Assembly: GCF_021026375.1 (NCBI RefSeq)
Contig: NZ_JAJNDB010000001.1
Coordinates: 1,178,001-1,242,000 of the forward strand
DNA: 64,000 bases
Origin: Actinomycetospora endophytica
GTDB taxonomy: Bacteria; Actinomycetota; Actinomycetes; Mycobacteriales; Pseudonocardiaceae
Direction: 5' to 3'
Shown: piece by piece, positions 967 through 19,723 of the stretch
How the letters are laid out: every line of letters begins with the position of its first letter
How positions within the stretch are numbered: the stretch's first letter is position 1
Notes under the pieces: model-generated
What the model was told of the DNA's origin: nothing
Seen by the model: the letters and a program-made list of their open reading frames with translations, nothing else
The model's database searches: none
Translations under genes and position numbers: made by a program

Positions 967-2019
967 ATGCCCCGTGCGACCTGCGTCACTACTTTCGGCG
1001 AGGTGGACGCGCCCGTAGCTACCCCTCCCCGAGCCGAGCAGACGGCCCCGGACCTGCGGGATCTCTACGAGCGGATGCTGCGGATCCGCCAGTTCGAGGC
1101 CAAGGTCGACGTCCTCTACCGGCAGGGACGCGTCCGCGGTCCGGCCCACCTGGGGCTCGGGCAGGAGGCCATCGCCGTCGGGGTCGCGGCGGCGCTGCGG
1201 TCGGGTGACTTCTCGCTCGGCACCTACCGCGGCCACGCCCACGCGCTGGCCCGAGGCGCCTCGGAGGAGGCGGTGCTGCGCGAGCTGCTCGGCCGGGTCG
1301 GCGGCATCTGCGGCGGCAAGGGCGGCTCGATGCACATCACCAGCGTCGAGCACGGCTACTACGGCTCCTACGCGATCGTCGGCGGCCACATCCCGACCGC
1401 CGTCGGCATGGCGTGGGCGAGCCGGATCCGTCGCGACGGCGGCGTCACGGCCTGCTTCTTCGGCGACGGCACGACGAACATCGGCGCCTTCCACGAGGCG
1501 GTCAACCTCGCCGCCGTCTGGTCGCTCCCGGTGGTGTTCGTCTGCGAGAACAACCTCTACATGGAGTACACGCCGATCGGTGACGTGATCCCGGTCGAGC
1601 GGCCGGCCGCCGACCGCGCCTCCGCCTACGGGCTGGCGCCGCTCGTCGTCGACGGCAACGACGTGGCCGCGGTCCGCGAGATGGCGCTGGCCGCCGTCGA
1701 CCGCGCCCGCCGCGGCGACGGGCCGTCGCTGGTCGAGGCCGTCACGTACCGGCTGGGCGGGCACTCGGTCGCCGACGGCGGGGCCTACCGCCACCCCGAC
1801 GAGGTCGCCGCGGCGCGGACCCGCGACCCGCTCGTGCGGCTGGCGACCGAGATGGCGCAGTCCGGCGAGATGGGCGTCGACGAGTCCGACGCCCTCGTCA
1901 CCCGGGTCAAGGGCGAGATGGACGCCCTGGCCGCGCGGGTGCTCGAGGAGCCGACCCCGGACGCCGCCGGCGCCTGGACCGGGATGTGGAGCGACGGGAG
2001 TGCGGCGTGGCGCAACTGA
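967..2019 (+). CDS. Thiamine-diphosphate-dependent E1 component, alpha subunit (pyruvate/acetoin dehydrogenase type)
   Basis: This is the alpha chain of a heterotetrameric E1, which with the beta chain performs thiamine-dependent decarboxylation of a 2-oxo acid or cleavage of an acyloin and passes the acyl unit to a lipoyl E2. The TPP/Mg motif is intact: GDGTTNIG at about residues 166-173 and CENN at about 193-196. The activation-loop region RLGGHSVADGGAYR is the usual phosphorylation-loop equivalent. Length (350 aa) is normal. The coding end overlaps the E1 beta start by 13 bases, and a MetE-family gene follows, so the three form one operon. No E2 or E3 gene is in the window, which leaves the acyl acceptor unknown. 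Pyruvate, acetoin or a CoM-linked carbonyl are all possible substrates. Confidence 0.88.
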   Translation: MPRATCVTTFGEVDAPVATPPRAEQTAPDLRDLYERMLRIRQFEAKVDVLYRQGRVRGPAHLGLGQEAIAVGVAAALRSGDFSLGTYRGHAHALARGASEEAVLRELLGRVGGICGGKGGSMHITSVEHGYYGSYAIVGGHIPTAVGMAWASRIRRDGGVTACFFGDGTTNIGAFHEAVNLAAVWSLPVVFVCENNLYMEYTPIGDVIPVERPAADRASAYGLAPLVVDGNDVAAVREMALAAVDRARRGDGPSLVEAVTYRLGGHSVADGGAYRHPDEVAAARTRDPLVRLATEMAQSGEMGVDESDALVTRVKGEMDALAARVLEEPTPDAAGAWTGMWSDGSAAWRN

Positions 2020-3008
2020 CCTTCCGCGAGGCCGTGGCCGCGGCGCTCGACCAGGAGATGGCCCGCGACGAGACCGTGGTGCTGCTGGGCGAGGACGTCG
2101 GGTCGGGCGGGGTCTTCAAGACGACCGCCGGGCTGAAGGAGCGCTTCGGCCCGGACCGGGTCTGGGACACCCCGATCTCCGAGCAGGCCATCGCCGGTGC
2201 CGCGATGGGGGCGGCCACGGCCGGTCTCCGCCCCGTCGCCGAGATCATGTTCTCGGACTTCTACGCCACCTGCTGGGACCAGGTCGCCAACGAGATCGCC
2301 AAGGCCTGCTACATGACCGGCGGCCAGCTGCGGATGCCGCTGGTGATCCGCGGGACCAACGGCGGCGGGCTCGGGTTCGGCGCGCAGCACAGCCAGTCGG
2401 TCGAGAACTGGGCGATGTGCGTCCCCGGCATCAAGATCGTCTCGCCGTCGACCCCGGACGACATGTGGGGCCTGCTCGCGGCGGCCATCCGCGACCCGGA
2501 GCCGGTGCTGGTGTTCGAGCACAAGGCGCTGTTCGGGACGAAGGCCGAGCGCCCGGCCGGCGACCACCACCTGGTCCCCCTCGGCGAGGCCGCGCTCCGA
2601 CGACGGGGCGACGACGTCACGCTCATCGGCCTGGCCCGCACCGTCGGGATGTGCGAGCAGGCGGCCACCGCACTCGCCGAGGACGGCATCGCCGCGGACG
2701 TCATCGACCTGCGCTGCCTGGTCCCCCTCGACGCCGCCACGGTCCTCGCGTCCGCGCGGCGCACCGGCCGCGTGGTGATCGTCGAGGAGAACCCCGGCCA
2801 GCTCGGCTGGGGCGCGGCCGTCGCCGCGATCCTCGCCGAGGAGGCGTTCCACGACCTGCGGGCGCCGGTCGTGCGCGTGTCCGGCGGCAACGTCCCGCTG
2901 CCGGTCGCCACCGCCATGGAGGCCGCGGTCATGCCGTCGGCCGAGAAGGTCGCCGCCGCCGCTCGGGGCCTGACCGAGGGACGGATTCCAGCCGCAACCC
3001 CAGCCTGA
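2007..3008 (+). CDS. Thiamine-diphosphate-dependent E1 component, beta subunit
   Basis: This is the beta chain of the E1 heterotetramer encoded with the preceding gene. The N-terminus (LTFREAVAAALDQEM, then GEDVG) and the segment GFGAQHSQSVENW, with the histidine that lines the active site in E1 beta chains, are typical. The C-terminal transketolase domain ends in VIVEENPGQLGWGA. I chose the GTG at 2007 over the upstream GTG at 1986 because GGAG lies 6 bases before it and the protein then begins at the usual place for the family (333 aa). The gene overlaps E1 alpha by 13 bases and is followed after 11 bases by the MetE-family gene, which argues for co-transcription and a shared pathway. Confidence 0.88.
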   Translation: MAQLTFREAVAAALDQEMARDETVVLLGEDVGSGGVFKTTAGLKERFGPDRVWDTPISEQAIAGAAMGAATAGLRPVAEIMFSDFYATCWDQVANEIAKACYMTGGQLRMPLVIRGTNGGGLGFGAQHSQSVENWAMCVPGIKIVSPSTPDDMWGLLAAAIRDPEPVLVFEHKALFGTKAERPAGDHHLVPLGEAALRRRGDDVTLIGLARTVGMCEQAATALAEDGIAADVIDLRCLVPLDAATVLASARRTGRVVIVEENPGQLGWGAAVAAILAEEAFHDLRAPVVRVSGGNVPLPVATAMEAAVMPSAEKVAAAARGLTEGRIPAATPA

Positions 3009-3019
3009 GGAGACAGATC

Positions 3020-4060
3020 ATGCGGATTCGGAACGAGGATGTCCTGCTCCCGGTGTCGGCGGTGTCCGCCTTCCCGCGGCCGCACTGGCTGCAGGGACGG
3101 ATTCTCGGCTGCGGGACCGAGCCCACCTACCGCAGCCACAACCTCCGCGTGGCCTACGAGGACGCCTGCAAGCTCACCGCCCGGGAACAGGAGGCGGCCG
3201 GGCTCGACATCCTCTGCGACGGCGCCCAGTACTACGAGTGGGAGGCGCCCGGCTTCCAGCTCGAGCCGATCTTCCACTTCATCCCGGAGAACCTCGGCGG
3301 GATCGACAACTTCGGACCGCCCGGCGACGGCGCGAAGTACGCCCCGTTCTACAAGGGCACGGTGCACAGCAAGGTCGAGTGGGTGCGCCCGATCTTCGAG
3401 GCCGTCGCGTACGCGATGCAGCTCGCCACCGACCGCCCGTTCAAGGTCGCGATGCTCGGCCCCGCGCAGCAGTCGATCATCCTGAACGACCAGCACTACG
3501 GCGACGGCGTCGCGCTCGCCAAGGACATCGCCCGGGCGCTGAACAAGGAACTGCACTACCTGCAGGACATGGGCATGGAGGCCGTCCAGCTCATCGACGT
3601 GCTGCCGCCCTACACCCAGGACATGTGGCAGATCGAGTGCCAGCAGATCATGTTCGAGGGCATCAATATGATCAAGTTCTGGCACGTCTGCTACGGCAGC
3701 GTCGACGGCCAGCGCGACATCTTCGACAACCACGCGGCGGGCATGATGCCGCTGTTCCGGGAGTCGCCCTGCGACGTGATCCACCTGGAGTTCACGAACA
3801 AGGACTTCGTCGAGCTCGAGGCGTTCGCGGACTACCCGACCGACAAGGTGCTCGGCGTCGGGGTGGTGGACGCGAAGAACACCATGGTCGAGCCCGTCGA
3901 GCAGATCGCCGACCGGATCCGGCGGGCGCTCAAGGTCATCCCGGCGGACCGGCTGCTGGTAGCCCCGGACTGCGGGCTCGGCTACTTCAGCCGCACCACC
4001 GCGTACGCGAAGCTGCGCAACATGGGCCAGGCCGCCCGAGAGGTCCGCGCGGCCCTGTAG
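3020..4060 (+). CDS. Short MetE-family zinc protein, candidate epoxyalkane:coenzyme M transferase (2-hydroxyalkyl-CoM lyase)
   Basis: This 346-residue protein matches only the C-terminal barrel of cobalamin-independent methionine synthase. The zinc triad is visible: His222 and Cys224 in FWHVCYGS and Cys318 in VAPDCGLGYF. The length suits the CoM transferases XecA and EtnE, which are single-barrel MetE relatives that join CoM thiolate to an epoxide, and it is far shorter than MetE. The methionine synthase GSFP motif reads SAFPRP. From memory, EtnE has an NYPNPRW-like segment near its N-terminus and VKSTITET near its C-terminus; here the matching places read SAFPRPHW and VDAKNTMVEP, so this is a divergent member. 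GAGGAGA precedes the ATG. It is the last gene of the E1 operon and lies near a complete CoM biosynthesis set. The substrate is inferred. Confidence 0.65.
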   Translation: MRIRNEDVLLPVSAVSAFPRPHWLQGRILGCGTEPTYRSHNLRVAYEDACKLTAREQEAAGLDILCDGAQYYEWEAPGFQLEPIFHFIPENLGGIDNFGPPGDGAKYAPFYKGTVHSKVEWVRPIFEAVAYAMQLATDRPFKVAMLGPAQQSIILNDQHYGDGVALAKDIARALNKELHYLQDMGMEAVQLIDVLPPYTQDMWQIECQQIMFEGINMIKFWHVCYGSVDGQRDIFDNHAAGMMPLFRESPCDVIHLEFTNKDFVELEAFADYPTDKVLGVGVVDAKNTMVEPVEQIADRIRRALKVIPADRLLVAPDCGLGYFSRTTAYAKLRNMGQAAREVRAAL

Positions 4061-4089: not shown

Positions 4090-5259
4090 TCACGGCGCGC
4101 CGGCCACCACGTCCTCGGTCGCCCGCAGCTCGGCGAGGTCGCGGTACCCCGCCAGCGCGAGGGTGGTGTCCAGCTCGGCGAGCAGGCACCGGACGACGTG
4201 GTGGACCCCCGCCTGCCCGCCCAGCGCCAGCCCGAACGCGAACGGCCGGCCGACCAGGACCGCGTCCGCGCCCAGCGCGAGGGCGACCGCGGCGTCGGCG
4301 CCCGTGCGGATCCCGGAGTCGAACAGCACCGGCACCCGCCCGGCGACCGACGCGACGACGCCCGGCAGCGCGGACAGCGCCCCGATCGCCCGGTCCACCT
4401 GCCGCCCGCCGTGGTTGGACACGATCACCCCGTCCACCCCGTGCCGGAGGGCCAGCTGCGCGTCCTCGGCGCGCTGGATCCCCTTGACGACCAGCGGTCC
4501 CTCCCACTGCGCCCGGATCCGGTCCAGCCGGTCCCAGCCCCAGGCGGTGCCGGTGAACAGGCGCTGGCGGTGGCGGACCGCCGCGCCGAGGTCCTCCTCC
4601 GGGGAACGGGCGAGGCCGGCGCGGAAGGCCGGGTCCGAGAACGGGATCGCCGTGCCCACGCCGCGCAGGAACGGCAGGTAGGCGCGGTCGAGGTCGCGTG
4701 GGCGCCAGCCGAGGGTCCAGGTGTCGAGGGTGACGACGAGGACGGTGAACCCGGCGGCCCGGGCGCGGGCCAGCAGGCTGGCGGTCACGTCGTCGTCGGT
4801 CGGCCGGTAGAGCTGGTACCAGCGGGGTCCGCGCCCGGAGGCCTCGGCCACCTCCTCGGTGGTGTGCGACGACGCCGTCGAGAGCACCGCCGGGACGCCG
4901 AGAGCCGCCGCGGCCCGGGCGGTGGCGAGCTCGCCGTCGTCGTGCAGCAGGCTCTGCACCCCCACCGGCCCGAGCAGCAGCGGAGCGGGCATCCAGGTGC
5001 CCAGCAGCCGCGTCGACCAGTCCCGGACGTGGTTGCCGCGCAGCATGCGCGGCACGAGGCCGACGCGATCGAAGGCGGCCCGGTTGGCGCGCATCGTCGC
5101 CCCGGACCCGGCCCCGCCCGCGACGTAGTCGAACGCGTGCGCCGGCAGCACGCGGCGCGCGGCCGCCTCGAGCCGCGCGGGGTCGGTGGGCAGCGCGGGG
5201 ACCCGGCCGTCGAGCCCGGCCGCGTAGATCTCGGCGCCGTAGCGGTCGGGGCCGGTCAC
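4090..5259 (-). CDS. FMN-dependent alpha-hydroxy acid dehydrogenase/oxidase (LldD / lactate 2-monooxygenase family)
   Basis: This is a (beta/alpha)8 flavoprotein that oxidises an L-2-hydroxy acid to the 2-oxo acid. The catalytic His and FMN-contact segment VSNHGGRQVDRAIGAL lies at about residue 280, and the phosphate-binding segments DSGIRTGADAAVALALGADAVLVGR follow in order as two halves typical of the family. The N-terminal RYGAEIYAAGL and YVAGGAGS match lactate monooxygenase-like proteins. I chose the GTG at 5259 (389 aa) because family similarity begins there; in-frame ATGs up to 5352 would add a Pro/Gly-rich leader and approach the divergent lyase gene. It is read against the E1/CoM-transferase operon and converges with it. 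It might feed a 2-oxo acid to the neighbouring E1, but that is speculation. Confidence 0.8.
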   Translation of the reverse strand: MTGPDRYGAEIYAAGLDGRVPALPTDPARLEAAARRVLPAHAFDYVAGGAGSGATMRANRAAFDRVGLVPRMLRGNHVRDWSTRLLGTWMPAPLLLGPVGVQSLLHDDGELATARAAAALGVPAVLSTASSHTTEEVAEASGRGPRWYQLYRPTDDDVTASLLARARAAGFTVLVVTLDTWTLGWRPRDLDRAYLPFLRGVGTAIPFSDPAFRAGLARSPEEDLGAAVRHRQRLFTGTAWGWDRLDRIRAQWEGPLVVKGIQRAEDAQLALRHGVDGVIVSNHGGRQVDRAIGALSALPGVVASVAGRVPVLFDSGIRTGADAAVALALGADAVLVGRPFAFGLALGGQAGVHHVVRCLLAELDTTLALAGYRDLAELRATEDVVAGAP

Positions 5260-5357
5260 GGGTCCATCGTCGGCGCGGGGAGGGCCCCCGGGCCAGGGTC
5301 CGGGGTCGGGTTCGTCCCGTCCGGACATGGTCGCCCGGGACATGTCCGGCAAAGCTC

Positions 5358-6821
5358 GTGGTCGTGAGCGGCCGCTACGCCGAAGAGCTCGTCGACGCCG
5401 GATTCGCCGTGGAGGTGGCCGACGCGCCGCTGCTGCACGACGGGCTCAACGTCGCCGACCTGGCCCACCTGCTGGTGCTCGTCGAGCGCGGCGTCGTCCC
5501 GTCGCGGGCCGTCCCGGGCCTGGTCGCGGTGCTGACCGACGCCGACCGGACCCCCGCCGCGGAGTTCGGGTACGACCCGCGCCACGGCGAGGTCTACAAC
5601 TGCCGCGAGAAGCGGTTCGCCGCCGCGATCGGGCGGGACGCGGGCTGGCTCCACGCGGGGCGACCCCGCCGCGAGGCCGTCCGGATCGCGCTGCGCCTGC
5701 GGGTGCGCCGCGATCTCTGCGACCTGATCGAGGCGGCCGCGGCGTTCGCGCTGGCGGGGGCCCGCACGGCCGCGGCGCACGCCGAGACGCTCATGGTCGA
5801 CCAGACCTACCTGCAGCACGCCCAGCCCTCGACGTTCGGGCACTACCTGCTCGGGATGGTCCACCCGGCGCTGCGCGAGATCGAGCGGCTCACCGCGGAC
5901 CTCGACGGCGTCGACCGGAGCCCGGCGGGAGCGGGCGGCGTCAACGGCAGCCCGCTCACCGGCGACCGGGCGCACATCGCCGAGCTCCTCGGGTTCGCCG
6001 AGGTCATCGAGCACACCCGCGACGCGATGTGGGCCTCCGACGGCTACACCGCGCTGGTCGGGCACGCCGCGGGGCTCGCCACCACACTCGACCGGCTCGC
6101 CGAGGACCTCGAGATCTGGAGCAGCGCCGAGTTCGGCTGGGTGCACCTGGCCCTCGAGCACACCCGCACCAGCATCCTCATGCCGCAGAAGCGCAACCCG
6201 TACGCGCTGACGATGGTGCGCGGCGAGGCCGGGGTGCTCATCGGCCGCGCCACCGGGATGCTCGCGCTGGCCAAGAGCCCGTCGGCCCGCAGCGACAACA
6301 TGATCTTCTCCTACGGCGAGGTGCCCCGGTCGGTCGATCTCGCGACCCGCGCCACCCGGCTCATGGCGGGCGTCGTCGCCGAGCTGGAGGTCGACGCGGC
6401 CGCGATGGAGGCGGCGCTGCGCGGCGGCTTCTCGCAGGCCGCCGACCTCGCCGAGCACCTCATGGTCACCGCGGGCCTGGACTACCGCAGCGCCTACGAC
6501 GTCGTCGGGATCGCGGTCCGCCGGGCCGCCGGCGCGGGCCTGACCGGCGCCGACCTCACCCGCGAGGACCTCGAGTCCGCGGCCGCCGAGGCGGGCCTCG
6601 AGCTCACCGCGACGCTCGGCGACCTGGCGGAGGTCCTCGACCCGGCGCGCATCGTCCGGTCCCGGGACTCCCGGGGCGGGGCCGCGCCCGACGAGGTCCG
6701 GCGGATGGCGGCCGCGTGCTGCTCGGTGGCCGAGAAGGCGCGCGACGCGGTCCGGGCCCGACGAGCGGGCTTCGACACCGCCGAGGCCGAGCTCCGACGG
6801 CGGGTCGCGGCCCTCGGGTAG
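5358..6821 (+). CDS. Argininosuccinate-lyase-like protein of the aspartase/fumarase superfamily (candidate CoM biosynthesis lyase)
   Basis: This is a member of the fumarase/aspartase fold that catalyses beta-eliminations. The signature loop TSILMPQKRNPY lies near residue 275, with the earlier conserved blocks YLQHAQPSTFGHYLL and GGVNGSPLTGDR. The overall pattern is closest to argininosuccinate lyase, but no arginine genes are nearby. In Xanthobacter two proteins of this superfamily (XcbB1, XcbC1) act in CoM synthesis, one eliminating phosphate from phosphosulfolactate; this window also has two, this one and 7775-9118. Its stop abuts the convergent stop of the PLP enzyme gene with no gap. GTG at 5364 is an equally good start. 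Which lyase does which step cannot be told from sequence alone. Confidence 0.7.
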   Translation: MVVSGRYAEELVDAGFAVEVADAPLLHDGLNVADLAHLLVLVERGVVPSRAVPGLVAVLTDADRTPAAEFGYDPRHGEVYNCREKRFAAAIGRDAGWLHAGRPRREAVRIALRLRVRRDLCDLIEAAAAFALAGARTAAAHAETLMVDQTYLQHAQPSTFGHYLLGMVHPALREIERLTADLDGVDRSPAGAGGVNGSPLTGDRAHIAELLGFAEVIEHTRDAMWASDGYTALVGHAAGLATTLDRLAEDLEIWSSAEFGWVHLALEHTRTSILMPQKRNPYALTMVRGEAGVLIGRATGMLALAKSPSARSDNMIFSYGEVPRSVDLATRATRLMAGVVAELEVDAAAMEAALRGGFSQAADLAEHLMVTAGLDYRSAYDVVGIAVRRAAGAGLTGADLTREDLESAAAEAGLELTATLGDLAEVLDPARIVRSRDSRGGAAPDEVRRMAAACCSVAEKARDAVRARRAGFDTAEAELRRRVAALG

Positions 6822-7778
6822 CTACGGCGTGGTGAACAGCGTGGGCGCACCCCCGCTGACCAGGAACACCACCGGCCCGGTGACCTCGCCGCGCCGTGCG
6901 GCCACGAGCAGGCCCGCCATCGCCTTGGCGGCGAACACCGGGTCGAGGAACACCCCCTCGGTGCACGCGACGAGTGCCGCGGCGGCGTCGCCCTCCGGCG
7001 AGCGCCGGCCGTAGGCGGGGCCGAGGTGCCCGTCGAGGATCGTCGGCGGTTCCGTCGGGGCGGGGACGCCGAGGAGCTGGGCGGCGCCGCGGGCCAGCGC
7101 CGTCACCCGCTCCACGCACTCCGGGGCGGGCCGGCTCACGGTCACCCCGACGACCCGGCCCAGGCCCTGCCAGGCGACTCCCGCGTGCAGGCCGCCCTGG
7201 GTCCCGCACGAGCCCGTGGCCAGCCAGAACGTCGCCGGCCCGATCCCCGCCGCGGCGAGCTGCCCGGCGAGCTCGACGGCCGCGGTCGCGTAGCCGAGGG
7301 CGCCGACCGGCGTGGCTCCGCCGCGCCCCAGGGCGAGTGGACACGCTCCGGCGGCACGCAGCTCGGCGGCCACCTCCTCCACGACCCGGTCCACGGAGGT
7401 GCGGTCCTGCTCGCCGGTGAAGCGGACGGTCGCGCCGGCGACGCCGGCCAGCGCCATGTTCCCGACGGCGGGTACCGGGTCGCCGTAGCAGACGAGCGTC
7501 GCCGCCAGCCCGTGCAGCCGGGCCGCGAGCGCGGCCAGCATCGCCCAGTTGGACGCGGGCCCGCCGCCGGTGACGAGGTGGTCGCACCCGCGGGCGAGGG
7601 CGTCGCCGAGCAGGTACTCGAGGCCCCGCACCTTGTTCCCGCCGACGCCGAGCCCGGTGAGGTCGTCGCGCTTGAGCCAGATCTCCACCCCGGCGGCCTC
7701 GGAGAGCCGGGGAGCGGGGACCAGCGGCGTCGGCAGCGTCGCCAGCCGGACCCGCGGGAGGGTGAGCGGACCGGTCAT
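6822..7778 (-). CDS. PLP-dependent D-cysteine desulfhydrase / ACC deaminase family protein (candidate CoM biosynthesis enzyme)
   Basis: This is a fold-type II PLP enzyme of the D-cysteine desulfhydrase family. KRDDLTGLGVGGNKVRGLEYL carries the cofactor lysine (Lys49) split over the usual block, followed by GGGPASNWAMLAALAARL and a phosphate-binding WLATGSCGTQGG. At 318 aa it has normal length. It is the last gene of the minus-strand operon that starts with comA, and its ATG overlaps the stop of the upstream lyase (ATGA). Bacterial CoM synthesis in Xanthobacter uses a PLP protein of this kind (XcbD1), and I recall that the published scheme ends with decarboxylation, thiolation and reduction steps. 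A thiolation or C-S chemistry role is therefore likely here; free D-cysteine breakdown is the alternative. Confidence 0.72.
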   Translation of the reverse strand: MTGPLTLPRVRLATLPTPLVPAPRLSEAAGVEIWLKRDDLTGLGVGGNKVRGLEYLLGDALARGCDHLVTGGGPASNWAMLAALAARLHGLAATLVCYGDPVPAVGNMALAGVAGATVRFTGEQDRTSVDRVVEEVAAELRAAGACPLALGRGGATPVGALGYATAAVELAGQLAAAGIGPATFWLATGSCGTQGGLHAGVAWQGLGRVVGVTVSRPAPECVERVTALARGAAQLLGVPAPTEPPTILDGHLGPAYGRRSPEGDAAAALVACTEGVFLDPVFAAKAMAGLLVAARRGEVTGPVVFLVSGGAPTLFTTP

Positions 7779-9118
7779 CCCCGGTCGGGGTCCCGCGCCA
7801 GGACCCGGTCGACGAACGCCGTGGCCATGCCGAGCGAGCGCGCCGGGTCCCGGGCCGCCGCCACCTCCGCCTCCGTCAGCAGCCCCTCGGACACCAGGCG
7901 CTCCCCGAGGTCGACGCCCTCGTCCCGCGCGGCCATGGCGGCGGCGTAGACCTTGTCGTGGGCGGAGTGCTTCCCGACCCGGGCGGCCAGCGCGGCCATG
8001 AGCGGCTCGGAGGCGAGGGATGCGCCGTGCGAGTCGAGGTTCGCCCGCATCCGGGCCGCGTCGACGGTCAGGCCCTCGAGCAGCCGCGTCGCGAACGCCA
8101 GGGCCGCGCCGGTGAGCTGGCACGCCTCGGGCAGCGCGAGCCACTCGGCCTTCCAGCCGCGGCCGTCCCGCTCGTGCAGGGCGACGAGGCCCTCCAGCGC
8201 GACCCCGGCGTCGGACCGCACGATCCGGGCGAGCGTGTCCAGGTGCTCGGAGAGCTCCGGGTTGCGCTTGTGCGGCATCGTGATGCTGCCGACGGTGCCC
8301 GCGACGACGGGTTCGCCCACCTCGCCGATCTCCGGGCGCTGCAGCTCGACGATCTCGGTGCCGATCTTCGCCAGCGTGCCGGTGACCAGCGCCAGGAACC
8401 CGAGGAACTCGGCCACCCGGTCCCGCGCGGTGAGCCACGGCAGGTCCGGCGCGCCGAGGTCGAGCCGGGTGGCGAAGGCGCGCACCAGGTCGAGAGCCCG
8501 CGGGCCCCAGAACTCCAGCGTGCCCAGGGCCCCGGCGAGCTGGACGACCTCGACGCGGGGACGCAGCTGCGCGAGCCGCGCCCGGTGCCGGTCGATCTCG
8601 TCGATCCACACCGCGGCCTTGAACCCGAAGGTGATCGGTTTCCCGGGCTGGGCGTGGGTGCGCCCGCACATGACGGTGTCGCGGTGCCGGCCGGCGAGCG
8701 CGACCGCCGCGGCCCGCACCCGGTCGAGGTCGCGGGCCACGACGTCGGCGGTCGCCCGCATGACCAGCCCGAACCAGGTGTCGGTGACGTCCTGCACCGT
8801 GGCGCCGTAGTACACCCACTCGCGCGCGTCCTCGGGGAGCACGGCCCGCAGCGCGTTGATCAGCCCGAGCGTGGAGTGCCCGGTGGCGCGGGTGCCCGCC
8901 CCGACCTCGACGAGGTCCACCCGGTCGGTGCGGGCGTGCTCGGCGATGGCGGCCGCAGCCTGGTCGGGAATCAGCCCGACCTCGGCCTGCGCGGCGGCGA
9001 GCGCGACGAGGATCTGCAGCCAGCCGCGGGTGCGCCCGGCGTCGTCGAGCAGGTCGTGCAGTTCGGGGACGGTCCAGAGGTGGCCGTAGACGACCGAGTC
9101 GGTGAGGTGGCTGCTCAC
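7775..9118 (-). CDS. Adenylosuccinate-lyase-like protein of the aspartase/fumarase superfamily (candidate CoM biosynthesis lyase)
   Basis: This 447-residue protein shows the adenylosuccinate lyase / 3-carboxymuconate cycloisomerase pattern: GRTHAQPGKPITFG near residue 155 and the flexible signature loop GSITMPHKRNPELSE near residue 278. Purine synthesis is not the likely job, because it is embedded in the comA operon with 4-base overlaps on both sides (GTGA with the upstream unknown gene, ATGA with the PLP gene). In Xanthobacter the lyase XcbB1 turns phosphosulfolactate into sulfoacrylate by phosphate elimination, an activity new to this superfamily. This protein or the one at 5358-6821 is the candidate for that step, and the other for a later one. 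Confidence 0.72.
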   Translation of the reverse strand: MSSHLTDSVVYGHLWTVPELHDLLDDAGRTRGWLQILVALAAAQAEVGLIPDQAAAAIAEHARTDRVDLVEVGAGTRATGHSTLGLINALRAVLPEDAREWVYYGATVQDVTDTWFGLVMRATADVVARDLDRVRAAAVALAGRHRDTVMCGRTHAQPGKPITFGFKAAVWIDEIDRHRARLAQLRPRVEVVQLAGALGTLEFWGPRALDLVRAFATRLDLGAPDLPWLTARDRVAEFLGFLALVTGTLAKIGTEIVELQRPEIGEVGEPVVAGTVGSITMPHKRNPELSEHLDTLARIVRSDAGVALEGLVALHERDGRGWKAEWLALPEACQLTGAALAFATRLLEGLTVDAARMRANLDSHGASLASEPLMAALAARVGKHSAHDKVYAAAMAARDEGVDLGERLVSEGLLTEAEVAAARDPARSLGMATAFVDRVLARDPDRG

Positions 9119-12885: not shown

Positions 12886-13658
12886 CGGGACAGGGCCGGC
12901 TGGCCGGGAAGGTCGCGCTGGTCACCGGCGCGGGGTCGGGCATCGGACAGGCCGCCGCGCAGCGCTTCGCCGCGGAAGGGGCGACGGTCGCGGTGCTCGA
13001 CATCCGCTCCGAGCTCGCCGCGCTCACCACGATGCTGATCGAGAAGGAGCACGAGGACCACGCGATGGCGTTCACCGCCGACGTCGGGAACGCCGCCGAG
13101 ATCGAGACCGCCGTGGACCTCGTCGCCGCCGAGCTCGGCCGCATCGACGTGGTCTACAACAACGCCGGGACCATGGAGCTGGGCTCGGTCGAGGACACCG
13201 CGGAGGAGGTCTGGGACCAGACCTTCGGCGTCCACGCCAAGGGCACCTACCTCACCTCCCGGGCCGCGCTGGAGCACATGGGGCCCGGCGGCGCGATCGT
13301 CAACCAGGGCTCGATCTCCGCCCTCGTCGGCGTGCAGTACCTCGCCGCGTACAGCGCCGCGAAGGGCGCGGTCGTCGCGCTGACCCGGCAGATGGCGGTG
13401 GACCTCGCGCCCCGCGGCATCCGCGTCAACGCCATCTGCCCGGGGACCTGCCGGACCCCGATGACCGAGCCGCTCTTCCGCGCCCGCGGCGAGGGCGACG
13501 CCGAGGCCGGGGTCGCCGCGACGATCCCGAAGTACCCGCTCGGCCGGCTCGGGACCCCGGAGGACATCGCCACCGCCGCGCTGTTCCTGGCGAGCGACGA
13601 GGCGTCGTTCATGACGGGATCGGTGCTGACCTCGGACGGAGGCATGACCGCGCAATGA
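12882..13658 (+). CDS. Short-chain dehydrogenase/reductase (second of a pair; hydroxyalkyl-CoM dehydrogenase candidate)
   Basis: This is a classical SDR of 258 residues with TGAGSGIGQA for NAD(P), an acidic residue at the end of strand 2 (VLDIRSE, NAD-type), NNAG, and YSAAK. The C-terminal substrate loop PGTCRTPMTEPLFRARGEG is arginine-rich, which would suit a sulfonate-bearing substrate; that is an inference. Its ATG overlaps the stop of the first SDR gene. The CoA-transferase alpha gene follows after 10 bases, preceded by GAGGGAG. The two SDRs differ enough in sequence to suggest different substrates or enantiomers and not a recent duplication. Confidence 0.7.
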   Translation: MTGQGRLAGKVALVTGAGSGIGQAAAQRFAAEGATVAVLDIRSELAALTTMLIEKEHEDHAMAFTADVGNAAEIETAVDLVAAELGRIDVVYNNAGTMELGSVEDTAEEVWDQTFGVHAKGTYLTSRAALEHMGPGGAIVNQGSISALVGVQYLAAYSAAKGAVVALTRQMAVDLAPRGIRVNAICPGTCRTPMTEPLFRARGEGDAEAGVAATIPKYPLGRLGTPEDIATAALFLASDEASFMTGSVLTSDGGMTAQ

Positions 13659-13668
13659 GGGAGCCACG

Positions 13669-14577
13669 GTGAGCGCGTTCCACCTCGGCGGCGACAAGCG
13701 CGTCCCGCTGGCCGAGGCCGCCGCGCGGGTCGGCGACGGGGCGCTGGTCGCGCTGGGCGGCGGGCTGTGCGCCCGGCTGCCGATGGCGCTGGTCCGCGAG
13801 CTGGTCCGGCAGGGCCGCCGCGGCCTGCACCTGGTCGGCTCGGCCCACAGCATCGACGTCGACCTGCTGATCGCCACCGGTGCGGTCGCGGTGTGCGAGG
13901 AGAGCTACGTCGGGTTCGAGCAGGATCTCGGGCTGGCGCCGGCGTTCCGGCGGGCCGCCCGCGAGGGAACGGTGGAGATCCGGGAGAGCTGCTGCGCGAC
14001 GATCCTCGCGCAGCTGCGGGCCGCCGAGGCCGGCGTGCCGTTCACCCCGGTGCGCGGGATCAAGGGCACCGACATCGAGGGCCTGCACCCGGAGTACGCC
14101 CGGATGACCTGCCCGTTCACCGGCGAGGAGCTCGTCGTCGTGCCGCCGCTGCGCCCGGACGTCACGCTGCTGCACGCCCCGGTCGGCGACGCCCACGGCA
14201 ACCTGCACCTCGACCAGCCGTTCGTGCTCGACGAGCGGTTCGCCCACGCCTCGGCGCAGGTGGTCGCGACGGTGGACCGGATCGTCCCGACGGCGGAGCT
14301 GGTCACCTCCGGCGTCGTCGTGCCGGGCCACCTCGTCTCGGCGGTCGCCGAAGTGCCCTACGGGGCACACCCGTCGTCGTGCTACCCCGGCTACGCCTAC
14401 GACCGGCCGCACCTGGCGGCCTACCTGGCCGCGGCCACGGCGGGCGGGACCGCGCTCGACGAGTACCTCGCGCGCTACGTGGCCGTCGACGAGGACACCT
14501 ATGTGAAGGACGTCGACCCGGGGCGGCTGGCGTCCTGGTCGGAGTCCACGGCGGCGTGGCAGGAGCTGTTCCGGTGA
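13669..14577 (+). CDS. CoA-transferase family protein, alpha subunit (glutaconate CoA-transferase / IpdA type)
   Basis: This 302-residue protein resembles the A chain of class I CoA-transferases of the glutaconate/3-oxoadipate kind. The N-terminal glycine segment ALGGGLCARLPMALVREL and the later VVPPLRPDVTLLHAP and DAHGNLHL are typical. It overlaps its B-chain partner by GTGA. Such enzymes move CoA between carboxylates. The same fold is also used by IpdAB, which hydrolyses a C-C bond in steroid ring breakdown, so transfer is likely but not certain. Placed between the SDR pair and an acyl-CoA synthetase, it probably acts on the acid or CoA ester made from the oxidised CoM thioether. Confidence 0.72.
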   Translation: MSAFHLGGDKRVPLAEAAARVGDGALVALGGGLCARLPMALVRELVRQGRRGLHLVGSAHSIDVDLLIATGAVAVCEESYVGFEQDLGLAPAFRRAAREGTVEIRESCCATILAQLRAAEAGVPFTPVRGIKGTDIEGLHPEYARMTCPFTGEELVVVPPLRPDVTLLHAPVGDAHGNLHLDQPFVLDERFAHASAQVVATVDRIVPTAELVTSGVVVPGHLVSAVAEVPYGAHPSSCYPGYAYDRPHLAAYLAAATAGGTALDEYLARYVAVDEDTYVKDVDPGRLASWSESTAAWQELFR

Positions 14578-15404
14578 GCGCGTGGTCGCTCGACGAGGCG
14601 TTCGTGGTGGCGCTGGCCCGCACGATCGCCGACCGGGAGGCGGTCTTCCACGGGTTCGCGAGCCCGTGCGCGCAGGTCGCGATGCACGTCGCGAAGCGCA
14701 CCCACGCCCCGGACTGCCTGCTGATCGAGGGCGCGACGTACGCCGTCGACCCCGTCCCGGTCTTCGTCCCGCCGACCGGCAACGACCTCGCCCTGCACCG
14801 CGACGCGGTCTACCGGATGCGGTTCGAGGAGTTCTTCGACGCGGCATGCCGGGGGGCGGTCGACCGGATGTTCCTCTCCGGCGGCCAGATCGACGGCTAC
14901 GGCAGCACGAACGTCACCGCGATCGGCGGGATGCCGCACCCGAAGATCAAGCTCGGCGGCGGGGGCGGTGGCGGCAACATCTCGGCGAGCATCGGCGCGC
15001 TGACCGTCTGGACCTCACGCCACCGAGCGGGCCGCACCCTGGTCGCCGACCTGGACTTCCTCACCGACCTCGGGCACCGCACCCGTGAGGGCACCCGGGC
15101 CGAGCTGGGCTACACCGGCGGCGGTCCGCAGTGGCTGGTCACCGAGCTCGGCGCGTTCGACTTCGACGACGAGGGCCACGCCCGGCTGCGGGCGCTGTGG
15201 CCGGACGTCACCGTCGACGACGTGGCCGCGGCGACCGGCTTCGCGCTGCGGGTCGCCCTCGACGGCGCGGACGGGCTGCTCGACCCGCCGTCGGAGGCGG
15301 AGCTGGCCGCGGTGCGCGCGGTCGACCCGCTCGGGGTGCGGCGCTCGGAGTTCGCGGACCCGGAGCTCGCGCGCACCTTCTCGACGGCGGCGGTCGTCTC
15401 GTGA
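14574..15404 (+). CDS. CoA-transferase family protein, beta subunit
   Basis: This is the B chain (276 aa) paired with the preceding gene by a 4-base GTGA overlap. FHGFASPCAQVAMHVAKRTH followed by APDCLLIEGATY gives the usual entry, with the Glu of IEGA at the place of the catalytic glutamate in glutaconate CoA-transferase. A glycine-rich segment KLGGGGGGGNIS and FLTDLGHRT follow as in family B chains. It ends in a GTGA overlap with the acyl-CoA synthetase gene. The strict coupling of all genes from 12166 to 17383 argues that the products are needed together in fixed ratio. Confidence 0.72.
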   Translation: MSAWSLDEAFVVALARTIADREAVFHGFASPCAQVAMHVAKRTHAPDCLLIEGATYAVDPVPVFVPPTGNDLALHRDAVYRMRFEEFFDAACRGAVDRMFLSGGQIDGYGSTNVTAIGGMPHPKIKLGGGGGGGNISASIGALTVWTSRHRAGRTLVADLDFLTDLGHRTREGTRAELGYTGGGPQWLVTELGAFDFDDEGHARLRALWPDVTVDDVAAATGFALRVALDGADGLLDPPSEAELAAVRAVDPLGVRRSEFADPELARTFSTAAVVS

Positions 15405-17383
15405 CGCTCCTCGACGCGCTGTTCTCGCCGCGCCGGGTCGCGCTGGTCGGGGCCTCCGACCGGGTCGGGAGCCTCGGGCAGGTACTGGCCGCGAACCTCG
15501 CGGACTTCCCCGGCGAGGTGGTGCCGGTGCGCGGCGGGGAGTCGCTGCGCGACGTCACCGGGCCGATCGACCTCGCCGTCGTCTCGGTGCCCGCGAAGGC
15601 CGTGCCCGCCGTCGCCGCCGACGCGGCCGCCGCGGGTGTGACGGCGATGGTGGTGCTCTCCGGCGGGTTCGCCGAGACCGGTCCGGACGGGACGGCGTTG
15701 CAGGACGAGCTGGTCGAGGCGTCGGGGGCGGTGCGCGTCGTCGGGCCGAACTGCTTCGGCATCCAGAACTGCGACCTGCCGCTGAACGCCTCGATGGCGA
15801 CCGGGCTCCCCGACGGCGGCGGCGGCATCTCGCTGATCAGCCAGTCCGGGGCGTACGGGATGGCGATCCGGACGCTCGCCGTCGACGAGCGCACCCGCTT
15901 CGCGAAGATCCTCGCCCCGGGCAACACCTGCGACGTGACCATCGCCGAGCTGCTCGCCGAGCTCTCCGCCGATCCCGCGACGCGGACGCTGTGCTTCCTG
16001 CTCGAGTCCCTGTCCGACGGGCGCGCGTTCGTCGGGACCGCGCGGCGGACCGGGGTGACGAAGCCGGTGATCGTCGCGAAGACCGGGCGCTCGGCGGCCG
16101 GGGCGCGGGCGGCGGCGTCGCACACCGCGGCCCTGGCCTCCTCCGAGAAGGTGTGGCAGGGCGTCTTCCGCCAGGCCGGGATCGTCGAGGTGGGCTCGGG
16201 GCAGGAGCTCCTCGACGTCGCGCGGGCGCTGGACGGGCAGCCCCACCCGGCCGGGAACCGGGTCGCGGTGATCACCAACTCCGGCGGGGTGGGCGTCGAG
16301 CTGTGCGACCTGCTCGCCGACGAGGGCCTCACGGTCCCGGCGCTGTCGCCGGCGCTGCAGGAACGGATCCGGGCGATGCTGCCCGCGTTCGCGAGCCCGG
16401 TGAACCCGGTGGACGTGACCCCGGTGTGGTCACGGTTCGCCGAGCTGTACCCGGCCCTGACGGATCTGCTCGCCCGCAGCGGCGAGGTCGACGTCGTCGT
16501 CCCGGTCCTGCTGCAGCGCGCGGCGATGGACGCGGCGACCGCGGAGGGCCTGCGGGCCACCGTCGCGACGCTGCGCGCGGACGGGGTGGAGGTGCCGGTG
16601 GCGGTGTGCTGGGTCGCGCCGCGCGACGCCCGCCCGAACGCCGACCTGCTCCAGGAGAGCGGGGTGCCGTGCTTCGACTGGCCGGCGCGGACCGCCCGCG
16701 CGCTCGGCCACGCCCACCGCTGGGCCCGCACCCGGGAACGACCGCTGCCGGCGACGCGTCCGGTGGTTCCGGTCGAGGCCCCGCCGGCCCTGGACCCCGA
16801 GGCCGGTGCGACGTTCCTCGCCCGCTTCGGGGTGACGACGGCGCGGTCCGTCGCCTGCGCCGACGCCGACGAGGCCGTCACGGCGGCCGGTGACGCGTTT
16901 CCCGTCGTCGTGAAGATCGCGAGCGCGGCGCACCGCACCGAGCTGGGCGGGGTGCGGGTCGGGCTGTCCTCGGCGACCGAGGTGCGGGACGCGGCGTCCG
17001 AGCTGCTGGCGCACGGGCCGGTGCTCGTCCAGCCGCAGCTCACCGGGGTCGAGGTGGCCGTCGGCGCGCTGCGCGACCCGGTGTTCGGGCCGGTGGTCAT
17101 GGCCGGGCTGGGCGGGGTCTGGATCGAGGTCCTCGCCGACGTCGGGTTCGCCCTCGCCCCGCTCGACCGGGCCGACGCCCGCGAGCTGCTCACCCGGCTG
17201 CGGGGCTACGCGCTGCTGACCGGGGCGCGCGGGGCCGGGTCGGTGGACCTCGACGCTCTGGCCGACGTGATCGTCGGGGCCGGCGACGCGCTGGTCGCGG
17301 CCGACGGTGTCTCCGAGATCGACCTCAACCCGGTGCTCGCGACGCCGGAGCGCGCGGTGGCGGTGGACTGGAAGGTCGCGTGA
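15401..17383 (+). CDS. ADP-forming acyl-CoA synthetase (acetate-CoA ligase, NDP-forming, fused alpha-beta)
   Basis: This fused enzyme (660 aa) makes an acyl-CoA from a carboxylate, CoA and ATP through a phospho-histidine. The N-terminal CoA-binding domain shows VALVGASDRVGSLGQVL, then GPNCFGIQN. The phosphorylated His is expected in AASHTAALAS (about residue 240). The C-terminal ATP-grasp part begins with FPVVVKIASAAHRTELGGV. Its GTG overlaps the CoA-transferase B stop. It could activate a carboxymethyl- or carboxyalkyl-CoM, or ordinary acetate or acetoacetate, to a CoA ester. Run in reverse it would conserve energy as ATP. The reaction class is firm and the substrate unknown. Confidence 0.8.
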   Translation: MTLLDALFSPRRVALVGASDRVGSLGQVLAANLADFPGEVVPVRGGESLRDVTGPIDLAVVSVPAKAVPAVAADAAAAGVTAMVVLSGGFAETGPDGTALQDELVEASGAVRVVGPNCFGIQNCDLPLNASMATGLPDGGGGISLISQSGAYGMAIRTLAVDERTRFAKILAPGNTCDVTIAELLAELSADPATRTLCFLLESLSDGRAFVGTARRTGVTKPVIVAKTGRSAAGARAAASHTAALASSEKVWQGVFRQAGIVEVGSGQELLDVARALDGQPHPAGNRVAVITNSGGVGVELCDLLADEGLTVPALSPALQERIRAMLPAFASPVNPVDVTPVWSRFAELYPALTDLLARSGEVDVVVPVLLQRAAMDAATAEGLRATVATLRADGVEVPVAVCWVAPRDARPNADLLQESGVPCFDWPARTARALGHAHRWARTRERPLPATRPVVPVEAPPALDPEAGATFLARFGVTTARSVACADADEAVTAAGDAFPVVVKIASAAHRTELGGVRVGLSSATEVRDAASELLAHGPVLVQPQLTGVEVAVGALRDPVFGPVVMAGLGGVWIEVLADVGFALAPLDRADARELLTRLRGYALLTGARGAGSVDLDALADVIVGAGDALVAADGVSEIDLNPVLATPERAVAVDWKVA

Positions 17384-17462: not shown

Positions 17463-18083
17463 ATGGCGGCGTCGATGACGATGGGCCTGCCCGGCGTCCG
17501 GTTGACGCCGGGCGATCACATCTGCGCCTTCTTCCGCGGCGCCCGGGAACGCGACGCGCTGCTGGTCCCCTACCTGCGCGAAGGGCTGCGGGCCGGGGAC
17601 ATGTGTCTGTGCGTGACCGACGACCCGACGGCCGCGGTCGGCGAGCTGGTCGCCGAGTCGGCGTCGGACCCCGAGCTCGCCCGCGGCCGGTTGCGCTCGA
17701 CCGACTCCGAGTCGACCTACCTCGCCGACGGCTGCTTCGTCATCGACCGGATGCTCGGCTTCTGGGAGACCGAGGTCGGCGGCGCCGTGGTGCGCGACGG
17801 GTTCGACTCGGTGCGCTCGGTCGGGGAGATGACGTGGGCGCTGAGCGGGCGCCCCGGCGTCGAGGGGCTGATCTCGTACGAGTCGCGGCTCAACGACTTC
17901 CTGCCGCGCTACCCGCTCGTCGCGCTCTGCCTGTACGACCTCGAGCGGTTCAGCGACGGCGAGATCGTCGTCGAGATCCTCCAGACCCACCCGGCCGTGC
18001 TGATCGGCGGCGAGCTCGTCGAGAACCCCTGGTACACCGATCCGCACGACTACCTCGGCCGGAGACCGGCCACCGCGTCGTGA
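17463..18083 (+). CDS. MEDS-domain sensor protein
   Basis: This 206-residue protein is almost entirely one MEDS (methanogen/methylotroph DcmR sensory) domain. GDHICAFFRGARERD near residue 18 and the block PYLREGLRAGDMCLCVTDD are the domain hallmarks, and a second conserved piece is GLISYESRLNDFLPRYPL. MEDS domains are thought to sense small organic substrates such as halomethanes or alkenes and control transcription with a partner. Here the partner is the PucR-type regulator, whose GTG overlaps this stop. GGAG sits 8 bases before the ATG. The 79-base gap upstream contains two ACCTGTCC repeats (about 17403 and 17416) that may be operator half-sites. Confidence 0.8.
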   Translation: MAASMTMGLPGVRLTPGDHICAFFRGARERDALLVPYLREGLRAGDMCLCVTDDPTAAVGELVAESASDPELARGRLRSTDSESTYLADGCFVIDRMLGFWETEVGGAVVRDGFDSVRSVGEMTWALSGRPGVEGLISYESRLNDFLPRYPLVALCLYDLERFSDGEIVVEILQTHPAVLIGGELVENPWYTDPHDYLGRRPATAS

Positions 18084-19723
18084 TCTCCGCGCCGCCGGAC
18101 CGGGCGGAGCGCGAGCTCCTCTCGAGCATGCGCAGCCTGCTCCTGCTCGGGAAGATGATGGCCGAGGGTGCGGACGAGCGGCAGATCGTCCTGCTGGCGA
18201 GCGGGGCGGCCCCGTCGCTCGCGCGCTGCGGGTACGCGCAGGTGGTGCTTCCCGGGGACACCGGCCCACGCGAGCTCGCCGCCGAGATCGCCGGGCTCGG
18301 GCCGTCCGGCGGACCGGTGCGCGTGCCCGGGCTCGAGCACGGCTGGGCGTGGCCGTTGCGCCAGACCGAGGACCCGCTCGGCCACCTCGTCGTCGGGGGG
18401 CCGGCCGAGTTCTCCGGCGAGGAGACCTTCCTGCTGCGGGCGCTGGCCCAGCAGACCGGCGACGCCCTGGCCAACCGCCGCCTGCACGACCAGGAACAGG
18501 CCACCGCCGCCACCCTCGTCGCGGTCAACGACCGGCTGCGCGGCACCGTCGAGGCGCTGCGCCGGAGTATGGACATCCACTCCCGGCTCACCGCCGTGGC
18601 CGTCTCCGGGGAGGGGCAGGACGGGATCGCCCGCGCGGTGCACGACCTGACCGGGCTGGGCGTGGCGATCGAGGACCGCTACGGCAACCTGCAGGCGTGG
18701 GCCGGCCCCGACCGGCCGTCGGTGTACCCGAAGGAGCCGCCCGCGTGCCGGGAGCGGCTGATCGCCCGCATCGCCCGGGAGGCCCGGCCGCTGCGACACG
18801 GGACGCAGGTCGTGGCGCTCGCGCACCCGCAGGGCGACACGCTCGGGGCGATCGTGCTCCACGACCCGGACCAGCGCGCCGGCGAGGCCGAGCTCATGGC
18901 GCTGGAGCACGGCGCGACGATCCTCGCGATGGAGCTCGCGCGCGTGCGCAGCCTCGCCGAGAGCGAGCTGCGGCTGCGTCGCGACGTGGTCGACGAGCTG
19001 CTCGGCGGCACCGACGAGGAGTCCAGCCTCGCCCGGGCGATGGCGCTGGGCTACGACCTGCAGCGCCCGCACCGGGTCGTCGTCGTCGAGGGCCACGGCC
19101 GGGTGCGGGACGACGACGCGTTCTTCCAGGCCGTCCGCCGGGCCGCGCGCGACGAGCCCGCCGGGACGCTCGTCGTCGCGCGCCGCGAGGAGGTGGTCCT
19201 GCTCGCCGACAGCGAGCCGGACTGGGAGCACCTGCGGCGCGCGGTGCTGCGCGAGCTCGGGGGCGGGCGCGCGCGGATGGGCGTCGGGCAGCGGTGCGAG
19301 CAGGTGGGCGACTTCCCCCGCTCGTACCGGCAGGCCCGGCTGGCCCTGCGGCTGCCCGCGCAGGCGGAGTGGGACGACCGCGCGATCCGGTTCGACGACC
19401 TCGGGGTCTACCAGCTGTTGGTGGGGATCGAGGACCTCGGGGAGATCGAGCGGTTCGTGCAGCACTGGCTCGGCAAGCTGCTCGAGTACGACACCAGCCG
19501 CGGCTCGGAGCTGGTGCGCACCCTCGCCCACCACCTCGAGCGCGGCGGGAACTACGAGCTGACCGCGAAGTCGCTCATCGTGCACCGCAACACGCTGAAG
19601 TACCGCCTCCAGCGGATCCGGCAGATCGCCGGGGTCGATCTCGGCGATCCCGACGTCTGGTTCAACCTGCACCTGGCCACGCGGGCCTGGCGGACGCTCG
19701 AGGTGCTGCGCGCGAGCCGTTAG
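18080..19723 (+). CDS. PucR/CdaR-family transcriptional regulator with GAF-like sensory region
   Basis: This is a 547-residue regulator. The C-terminal PucR helix-turn-helix (HTH_30) is clear: GGNYELTAKSLIVHRNTLKY and RLQRIRQIAGVDL, followed by WFNLHLATRAW. The middle shows a GGDEF-derived, non-catalytic domain typical of the CdaR group, and residues 20-150 look GAF-like with a helical linker rich in Arg and Glu. It starts in a GTGA overlap with the MEDS sensor, so the two probably act as a pair. I recall a MEDS/PucR pair (EtnR1/EtnR2) beside ethene-degradation genes in mycobacteria. By position it most likely controls the CoM operons. Its stop overlaps the convergent aminotransferase stop by 4 bases. 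Confidence 0.8.
   Translation: MISAPPDRAERELLSSMRSLLLLGKMMAEGADERQIVLLASGAAPSLARCGYAQVVLPGDTGPRELAAEIAGLGPSGGPVRVPGLEHGWAWPLRQTEDPLGHLVVGGPAEFSGEETFLLRALAQQTGDALANRRLHDQEQATAATLVAVNDRLRGTVEALRRSMDIHSRLTAVAVSGEGQDGIARAVHDLTGLGVAIEDRYGNLQAWAGPDRPSVYPKEPPACRERLIARIAREARPLRHGTQVVALAHPQGDTLGAIVLHDPDQRAGEAELMALEHGATILAMELARVRSLAESELRLRRDVVDELLGGTDEESSLARAMALGYDLQRPHRVVVVEGHGRVRDDDAFFQAVRRAARDEPAGTLVVARREEVVLLADSEPDWEHLRRAVLRELGGGRARMGVGQRCEQVGDFPRSYRQARLALRLPAQAEWDDRAIRFDDLGVYQLLVGIEDLGEIERFVQHWLGKLLEYDTSRGSELVRTLAHHLERGGNYELTAKSLIVHRNTLKYRLQRIRQIAGVDLGDPDVWFNLHLATRAWRTLEVLRASR

Follow-up and report, generated by a model that had tools for sequence, protein, structure and literature searches.

A chromosomal coenzyme M gene island in Actinomycetospora endophytica with a predicted role in epoxide metabolism and an associated MetE-family module

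A 64,000-nucleotide stretch of the Actinomycetospora endophytica genome (hereafter the window; C9:1178001-1242000 of a 6.98-Mb assembly, 74% G+C) carries genes for the synthesis and use of coenzyme M (CoM). An earlier note on this DNA, made from the letters alone, had described an actinomycete locus for making and using CoM, a description borne out at the sequence level by curated family models. The segment 5358-19723 encodes ComA, XcbA, XcbC, XcbD, XcbE and a block of downstream genes. The genes named in that note are found at the coordinates given below; the genes for the two E1 subunits of a 2-oxo acid dehydrogenase and for a flavin mononucleotide (FMN) dependent α-hydroxyacid oxidase had been passed over. 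Genes outside the window were predicted with a codon-usage caller trained on the window genes; this caller fails at loci of low G+C content, and tblastn was used there. The names of neighbouring genes (purine genes, LutB, P450 and LarE) come from reading the translations, with no model matches.

Family models identified ComA, both aspartase/fumarase-family lyases (XcbC and XcbD) and the pyridoxal phosphate (PLP) enzyme (XcbE), in agreement with the classes proposed before. The ComA/XcbB phosphosulfolactate synthase lies at 9984-10742 on the minus strand (PF02679, 249.6 bits; cut-off 25.2); its longest frame extends to 10841, and the relatives favour the start at 10742. The XcbC-type lyase at 5358-6821 (plus strand; NF052535, 420 bits; cut-off 575) shares 45-50% identity with XcbC of Mycolicibacterium chubuense NBB4 and Nocardioides sp. 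JS614, and is predicted to convert phosphosulfolactate to sulfoacrylate. The XcbD-type lyase at 7775-9118 (minus strand) matched the NCBIfam model of 3-sulfopropionylcysteine synthase (NF052536, 674 bits; cut-off 600). The XcbE-type enzyme at 6822-7778 (minus strand; NF052537, 290 bits; cut-off 450; 55-65% identity to NBB4 and JS614) may act at a late step of CoM synthesis. The gene at 9115-9987 (minus strand), previously called an unknown protein, encodes a member of the XcbA family (DUF7714; PF24830, 290 bits; NF052538, 400 bits; cut-off 150). The comA, xcbA, xcbD and xcbE genes lie on the minus strand with a 4-base overlap at each junction; xcbC is on the plus strand, with its end back to back with the end of xcbE. 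As predicted from the families, the bacterial CoM synthesis gene set is present, with 45-65% identity to the NBB4 and JS614 orthologs.

The downstream block is encoded on the plus strand, and all of its previously listed members are present and have homologs in alkene clusters: a disulfide-reductase-like flavoprotein, two short-chain dehydrogenases/reductases (SDR1 and SDR2), a CoA-transferase pair, an ADP-forming ligase and a MEDS/PucR regulator pair. The flavoprotein at 10826-12169 resembles coenzyme A disulfide reductase (CoADR; TIGR03385, 355 bits; cut-off 578.8), and is 56-62% identical to the NBB4 and JS614 proteins in the same place. It was ruled out as a 2-ketopropyl-CoM carboxylase (2-KPCC), being only 23-26% identical to these enzymes and CoADR-like by model and solved relatives. 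SDR1 (12166-12885) is of the R-2-hydroxypropyl-CoM dehydrogenase type (XecD), and its sole solved match at 1e-45 is this dehydrogenase (2cfc); by alignment and numbering, its R141 and R185 correspond to R152 and R196 of XecD, which we take to be the sulfonate-binding arginines. SDR2 (12882-13658) is XecE-like (46% to XecE; 60-61% to NBB4 and JS614). The CoA-transferase subunits A (13669-14577; PF01144, 91 bits) and B (14574-15404; PF01144, 25.6 bits) are 67-70% and 68-72% identical to their counterparts in alkene clusters. They are followed by the ADP-forming acyl-CoA synthetase (15401-17383; TIGR02717, 359 bits; cut-off 567; 48-63% to alkene clusters), the MEDS-domain sensor (17463-18083; 47-52% to the NBB4 and JS614 MEDS proteins) and the PucR-type regulator (18080-19723; PF13556 and PF17853; 48-54% to alkene-cluster regulators).

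Comparison of gene order with known loci, as had been suggested, showed nearly the same order as in the alkene and vinyl chloride clusters of NBB4 and JS614. The NBB4 clusters (pMYCCH.01 and pMYCCH.02) contain comA-xcbA-xcbD-xcbE-xcbC, a CoADR-like protein, SDRs, the CoA-transferase pair, an acyl-CoA ligase, MEDS and helix-turn-helix regulators and 2-KPCC, and share 45-72% identity with the window genes. The vinyl chloride/ethene cluster on pNOCA01 of JS614 has the same synthesis and downstream genes; the MEDS/PucR pair, 2-KPCC and a luciferase-like (LLM) protein are also common to JS614 and this genome. For the downstream block the identity to both is 47-72%, and the order is largely common. 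The known clusters also differ from the window. In NBB4 the cluster includes a diiron alkene-type monooxygenase, and pMYCCH.02 also encodes EtnE, whereas no pyruvate dehydrogenase (PDH) E1, FMN hydroxyacid oxidase or MetE2 (see below) is annotated in the NBB4 stretches viewed; JS614 has an EtnE-clade transferase beside the monooxygenase genes, and its cluster is plasmid-borne. Xanthobacter autotrophicus Py2 (pXAUT01) is similar in its XecD-type SDR (53-54%) and xcb genes (38-47%); however, in the two stretches viewed no CoADR-like protein, CoA-transferase, ADP-forming ligase or MEDS/PucR pair is listed, and LysR regulators are found instead. By homology and gene order, the main block of synthesis and downstream genes is assigned to an already known kind of CoM/epoxide locus.

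The enzymes missing from the window were found at a second locus (L020; C9:315000-332000), about 855 kb away, which was reached through MetE-like paralogs. XecA at C9:322421-323527 (L020:7422-8528) is 74.5% identical to XecA of Py2 and falls within the XecA clade of the tree. It adjoins a 2-KPCC gene at C9:320787-322364 (L020:5788-7365), whose product is 66% identical to that of JS614 and 54% to that of Py2, and matches the 2-oxopropyl-CoM reductase 1mo9 with an E value of 4.9e-180. The Cys-x4-Cys pair (C79/C84) and an F/H pair (F503/H508) are conserved in it; the latter presumably corresponds to F501/H506 of the Py2 enzyme. The reported absence of a two-cysteine ketopropyl-CoM carboxylase is therefore right for the window and wrong for the genome. 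The locus also encodes a luciferase-like protein (69% to NBB4), a GNAT protein, a P450 and a MEDS/PucR pair, which is 68% (MEDS) and 65% (PucR) identical to the regulators of the window. The P450 has no relative in the stretches viewed of two related genomes, G009 (Actinomycetospora sp. TBRC 11914) and G012 (NBRC 106375), and is not argued for as the epoxide-forming enzyme.

Unlike in NBB4, XecA and 2-KPCC are unlinked to the synthesis genes here. However, the window and L020 look like one pathway, because both genes are part of the G009 island, where they separate xcbE from xcbC, and XecA has this position in G012 as well. In G012 a luciferase-like gene follows xcbC, and no 2-KPCC was found in the XecA/xcb stretch viewed; the contig ends near this locus and its other flank differs. 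Among 346 Pseudonocardiaceae genomes, EtnE/XecA (1e-60) was detected in 10, all of them among the 48 genomes with XcbA; for both EtnE/XecA and MetE2 the scoring covered the five or six best candidates of each genome, and the associations are uncorrected for kinship. With XecA and 2-KPCC this far from the synthesis genes, the lack of a gene at one locus says little. A Xanthobacter-type XecA and a 2-KPCC are here found on an actinobacterial chromosome, and Actinomycetospora joins the bacteria with CoM-dependent epoxide genes.

The window probably encodes the greater part of a Xanthobacter/actinobacterial-type pathway for CoM-dependent epoxide metabolism, completed by the XecA and 2-KPCC of L020, a reading to which we give a probability of about 75%; the classic epoxypropane route is its likeliest role. 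ComA would join sulfite to phosphoenolpyruvate, XcbC would eliminate phosphate to give sulfoacrylate, and XcbD and XcbE would add cysteine and release CoM, with XcbA as a conserved helper in the synthesis. XecA would then open the epoxide, most likely epoxypropane, with CoM; SDR1 and SDR2 would oxidise the hydroxypropyl-CoM enantiomers to 2-ketopropyl-CoM, which 2-KPCC would cleave and carboxylate to acetoacetate. The flux would continue through the CoA-transferase pair and the ligase, bringing acetoacetate to acetyl-CoA, and the MEDS/PucR pair at each locus may sense the substrate and co-induce the genes. An alternative is that the substrate is ethene or vinyl chloride (C2) and not propene. 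The flavoprotein, CoA-transferases and ligase match the ethene/vinyl chloride clusters; whereas the CoM transferase belongs to the XecA and not the EtnE clade, and both SDRs are present with 2-KPCC, a set tied to propylene in the accessible part of PMC6440738. NBB4 and JS614 also have SDRs and 2-KPCC, so this last point is not decisive, and a C2 substrate is considered improbable.

Several observations weigh against the epoxypropane reading. The pathway genes are divided over two loci, whose joint expression is only inferred, and the preference for C3 rather than C2 or C4 substrates is suggested by similarity only. ComA scores 214.5 bits with the archaeal equivalog TIGR03849, under its cut-off of 280; for XcbC and XcbE the CoM models are the best matches, yet the scores are under the curated cut-offs. 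The classic route has no step for the E1 subunits, MetE2 or the FMN oxidase. Moreover, no alkene-monooxygenase-type system was found in the genome by PF02332; matches to this family occur in 16 of the 18 genomes of the genus, so that the propane monooxygenase (Prm) does not appear to be selected with the locus; and G347 and G352 carry XecA without any PF02332 match.

The absence of an alkene monooxygenase from the locus had been noted before, and holds: PF02332 matched only a pair of PrmA type, some 100 kb upstream of the window (C9:1.076-1.080 Mb), and a lone beta subunit on C2. Inspection of the DNA upstream of base 1, which the earlier note had proposed, covered 20 kb and revealed purine and other genes, with no diiron alkene monooxygenase adjoining the locus. 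Within the relevant diiron family, the propane type is the only monooxygenase that was detected in the genome. The matches of G009 and G012, the only two genomes compared, are 97-99% identical to PrmA; the idea that Prm was selected together with the CoM locus was dropped, since the distribution within the genus shows no association. Related CoM loci occur in 11 genomes, nine of which have PF02332 matches; in one, G342 (Pseudonocardia OFTM178), the CoM contig also carries a Rieske-type diiron cluster. The orphan propane monooxygenase beta subunit on C2 (L023:8456-9601) is near-identical to that on C9 (L022:8021-9166) over the part compared. A third PF02332 match is present in G009, on a separate contig.

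The accessible part of PMC11507031 describes a comparable case in the methanotroph Methylohalobius crimeensis, whose epoxyethane/CoM cluster has CoM and epoxide genes and a MEDS regulator without an alkene monooxygenase, and co-oxidation by the particulate methane monooxygenase (pMMO) was proposed there as the source of the epoxide. By analogy, the epoxide in Actinomycetospora probably derives from co-oxidation of alkenes by the propane monooxygenase. The M. crimeensis system differs in being proteobacterial, in a single cluster and with its epoxide attributed to pMMO, and the protein named there for the pyruvate dehydrogenase complex is an E3 component, in contrast to E1 here. This precedent, and the lack of an alkene-type monooxygenase by PF02332, would also suit a pathway for epoxide detoxification instead of growth. 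Such a role has a real chance of being correct, if somewhat below even; the CoA-transferase, the ligase and 2-KPCC point to carbon assimilation.

Four genes at the start of the region form a separate group. The E1α subunit of a thiamin-diphosphate 2-oxo acid (pyruvate-type) dehydrogenase is encoded at 967-2019 (plus strand; PF00676, 232.6 bits), with PDH E1α as solved relatives and the GDG...ENN motif conserved. It overlaps the gene of its E1β partner at 1986-3008 (plus strand; PF02779/PF02780; NF006667, 341 bits; cut-off 321). MetE2 follows at 3020-4060 (plus strand; PF01717, 82.8 bits) and is a member of the MetE family, within which it belongs to a distinct, CoM-associated clade. An FMN α-hydroxyacid oxidase similar to L-lactate oxidase and lactate 2-monooxygenase, by its solved relatives, lies at 4090-5352 on the minus strand (start perhaps at 5259; PF01070, 402 bits). 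The MetE-type protein had been suggested as the epoxyalkane:CoM transferase, which is probably not the case, since XecA at L020 fills this role; identity to EtnE/XecA of only 29-30% and the separate clade rule out its assignment to that group.

Phylogenetic analysis placed 18 MetE2 proteins in one clade (support 100/99), apart from EtnE and XecA. The tree included 17 of the 20 listed MetE2 matches and one from L056, leaving out those on C133 of G342 and on C109 and C9 of G087; a first tree flagged long branches, and the support values are those of the rebuilt tree. The positions H222, C224 and C318 are conserved in all 18 members and E257 in 17, and these are presumably the zinc ligands; R20, Q70, W121, R123, D157, E177, W203 and Y225 are invariant in all 18. 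In its PF01717 membership and zinc positions MetE2 is similar to the B12-independent methionine synthase (MetE C-terminal family). It differs in that it scores far under the NCBIfam equivalog cut-offs, though over that of Pfam, and in forming its own clade that is found mostly in CoM loci. Within the genus, MetE2 (1e-60) occurs in three of 18 genomes (G000, G009 and G012), exactly those with the epoxide-type XcbA. In the family, MetE2 (1e-45) was found in 10 of 346 genomes, nine of them among the 48 with XcbA; the probability of this overlap by chance is 8.5e-8, uncorrected for kinship. The tenth, G065 (93% complete), has MetE2 without an XcbA match.

The order E1α-E1β-MetE2 is shared by the window, G009, G012, G342 (where E1β is broken in two in the gene calls) and G065; L056 has E1β-MetE2 at the locus edge. 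No E1 neighbour to MetE2 was seen in the stretches viewed of G317, G087, G344, G321 and others. In the one-contig genome G337, which has two MetE2, the order in the reading direction is comA-xcbA-xcbD-xcbE-xcbC-2-KPCC-lipoyl domain-AMP ligase-MetE2-E1α-E1β, where the 2-KPCC is a relative of that enzyme. No EtnE/XecA match was found in G337 at 1e-60, and MetE2 is the only candidate CoM transferase found there. Apart from L089, where a 37% match was seen, none of the other CoM loci examined has a free lipoyl domain. The FMN oxidase is also encoded in G009, G012, L056, L060 and G342.

These data are read as pointing to a conserved module that is accessory to CoM metabolism or offers another way into it, and MetE2 is a possible CoM transferase for another substrate. 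One explanation is that MetE2 represents a third class of CoM S-alkyl transferases for an oxygenated C3 substrate (e.g. glycidate- or haloacid-like). The FMN oxidase would then convert CoM-lactate to CoM-pyruvate, 2-KPCC would release pyruvate or oxaloacetate, and E1α/E1β would convert pyruvate to acetyl-CoA. The distinct clade with its zinc positions and eight own residues, the co-occurrence with XcbA, the conserved gene order, the recurrent FMN oxidase with the presumed LutC/LutA of a G012 locus, and the gene set of G337 (two MetE2, xcb genes, a 2-KPCC relative and a lipoyl domain without EtnE/XecA) are consistent with this. However, the CoM-lactate/CoM-pyruvate chemistry is a guess from gene names, a true XecA in the genome means that MetE2 need not be the entry enzyme, MetE2 occurs without XcbA in G065 and elsewhere without E1 neighbours, and the genome counts depend on a few best candidates. 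This explanation is regarded as rather unlikely. Alternatively, MetE2 might be a sulfur-housekeeping methyltransferase, and E1α/E1β and the FMN oxidase might handle ordinary lactate and pyruvate formed from diols of propane or propene, none of them touching CoM. Lactate oxidase and PDH E1 as the closest solved relatives, and the grouping of MetE2 with methionine synthases by Pfam and NCBIfam, argue for it; whereas the restriction of MetE2 to the epoxide-type CoM genomes of the genus, and its tracking of XcbA in the family, argue against it. It is a tentative option, held at less than even odds.

No description of a MetE2/E1/FMN oxidase module was found in the open-licence literature, where the clade as such is not searchable. 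That E1α-E1β-MetE2 with the FMN (or Lut-like) oxidase forms an undescribed CoM catabolic module, with MetE2 as a third transferase class taking an oxygenated C3 electrophile and the adduct processed through lactate- and pyruvate-like CoM thioethers, is unlikely as a whole. The earlier suggestion that the substrate and route may be new does not hold for the main block, given its alkene-cluster gene order and the XecA and 2-KPCC in the genome; it survives in a weaker form for this conserved, CoM-tied sub-module. The MetE2 clade is a defined and testable family, which could widen the short list of bacterial CoM reactions.

Two further contigs contain MetE2 relatives in other settings. Contig C22 of G012 (L185 and L045) has a third type of CoM locus with an alpha/beta-hydrolase, a MetE2 relative, a beta-lactamase-fold protein, a 2-KPCC-like protein (55% to NBB4), xcb genes, and CCG and LUD proteins, presumed to be LutA and LutC. 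The G342 contig has five MetE2 (a sixth match is on another contig), XecA, an EtnE relative (60%), 2-KPCC, the diiron monooxygenase cluster and several MEDS/PucR regulators.

The CoM region of the window forms an island between purine genes. On the upstream side are a gene of the beta-eliminating-lyase family (threonine-aldolase-like by family model) and genes read as purB, purC and other purine genes; purD is located downstream at 22748-24190. The island of G009 occupies the same purB/purC site.

A protein in the place of XcbA has also been noted in vinyl chloride clusters. The accessible part of PMC8727900 names a conserved hypothetical protein gene between xcbB1 and xcbE1 as xcbF1, which by its position should be the same gene as xcbA. 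Alignment of 51 XcbA proteins, covering 50 of the 80 loci retained from 125 relatives, showed that C188, C218, C239, C256, C257 and H121 are invariant; the five cysteines perhaps form a metal site. The predicted structure is confident (pLDDT 95), but no convincing relative was found in the PDB: among the best 50 of 511 matches, the query-normalised TM score was at most 0.24, and the target-normalised TM reached 0.47 on a 125-residue chain. The sole match listed with E <0.001 was an RsmE-like methyltransferase (TM 0.13), and assignment of a function from the fold was dropped.

A second type of CoM operon, comA-xcbA-xcbD-xcbE-xcbC, which lacks epoxide genes over the stretches viewed, was found in six other Actinomycetospora genomes (L046-L051) and at L076, L089, L090, L092, L095, L097, L100, L102-L104, L117 and L124-L130; these locus types were counted among the 80 retained of 125 relatives and are not totals. 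At the thresholds used, 35 of the 48 XcbA-positive Pseudonocardiaceae have neither EtnE/XecA nor MetE2, some of the assemblies being incomplete. The second operon type suggests a CoM role outside alkene metabolism, and bears on the statement in the accessible part of PMC11507031 that, apart from methanogens and alkene users, no organisms are known to have CoM genes. Many loci of this type contain AllG and AllH (oxamate carbamoyltransferase families), an AIRS-family protein, OsmC, an XRE-cupin protein and a CoADR-like flavoprotein; no literature linking oxamate carbamoyltransferase with CoM was found. Within the genus, LarC occurs in seven and AllG in six of the eight genomes with the second XcbA type, and neither occurs in the other 10; among the eight are two incomplete genomes (59% and 83%), for which the type was assigned from the score alone. 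Some loci also contain nickel-pincer cofactor genes, namely LarC together with a presumed LarB (of the AIR-carboxylase family) and a presumed LarE (an ATP-pyrophosphatase). These presumed Lar genes adjoin the operon in five of the six Actinomycetospora loci.

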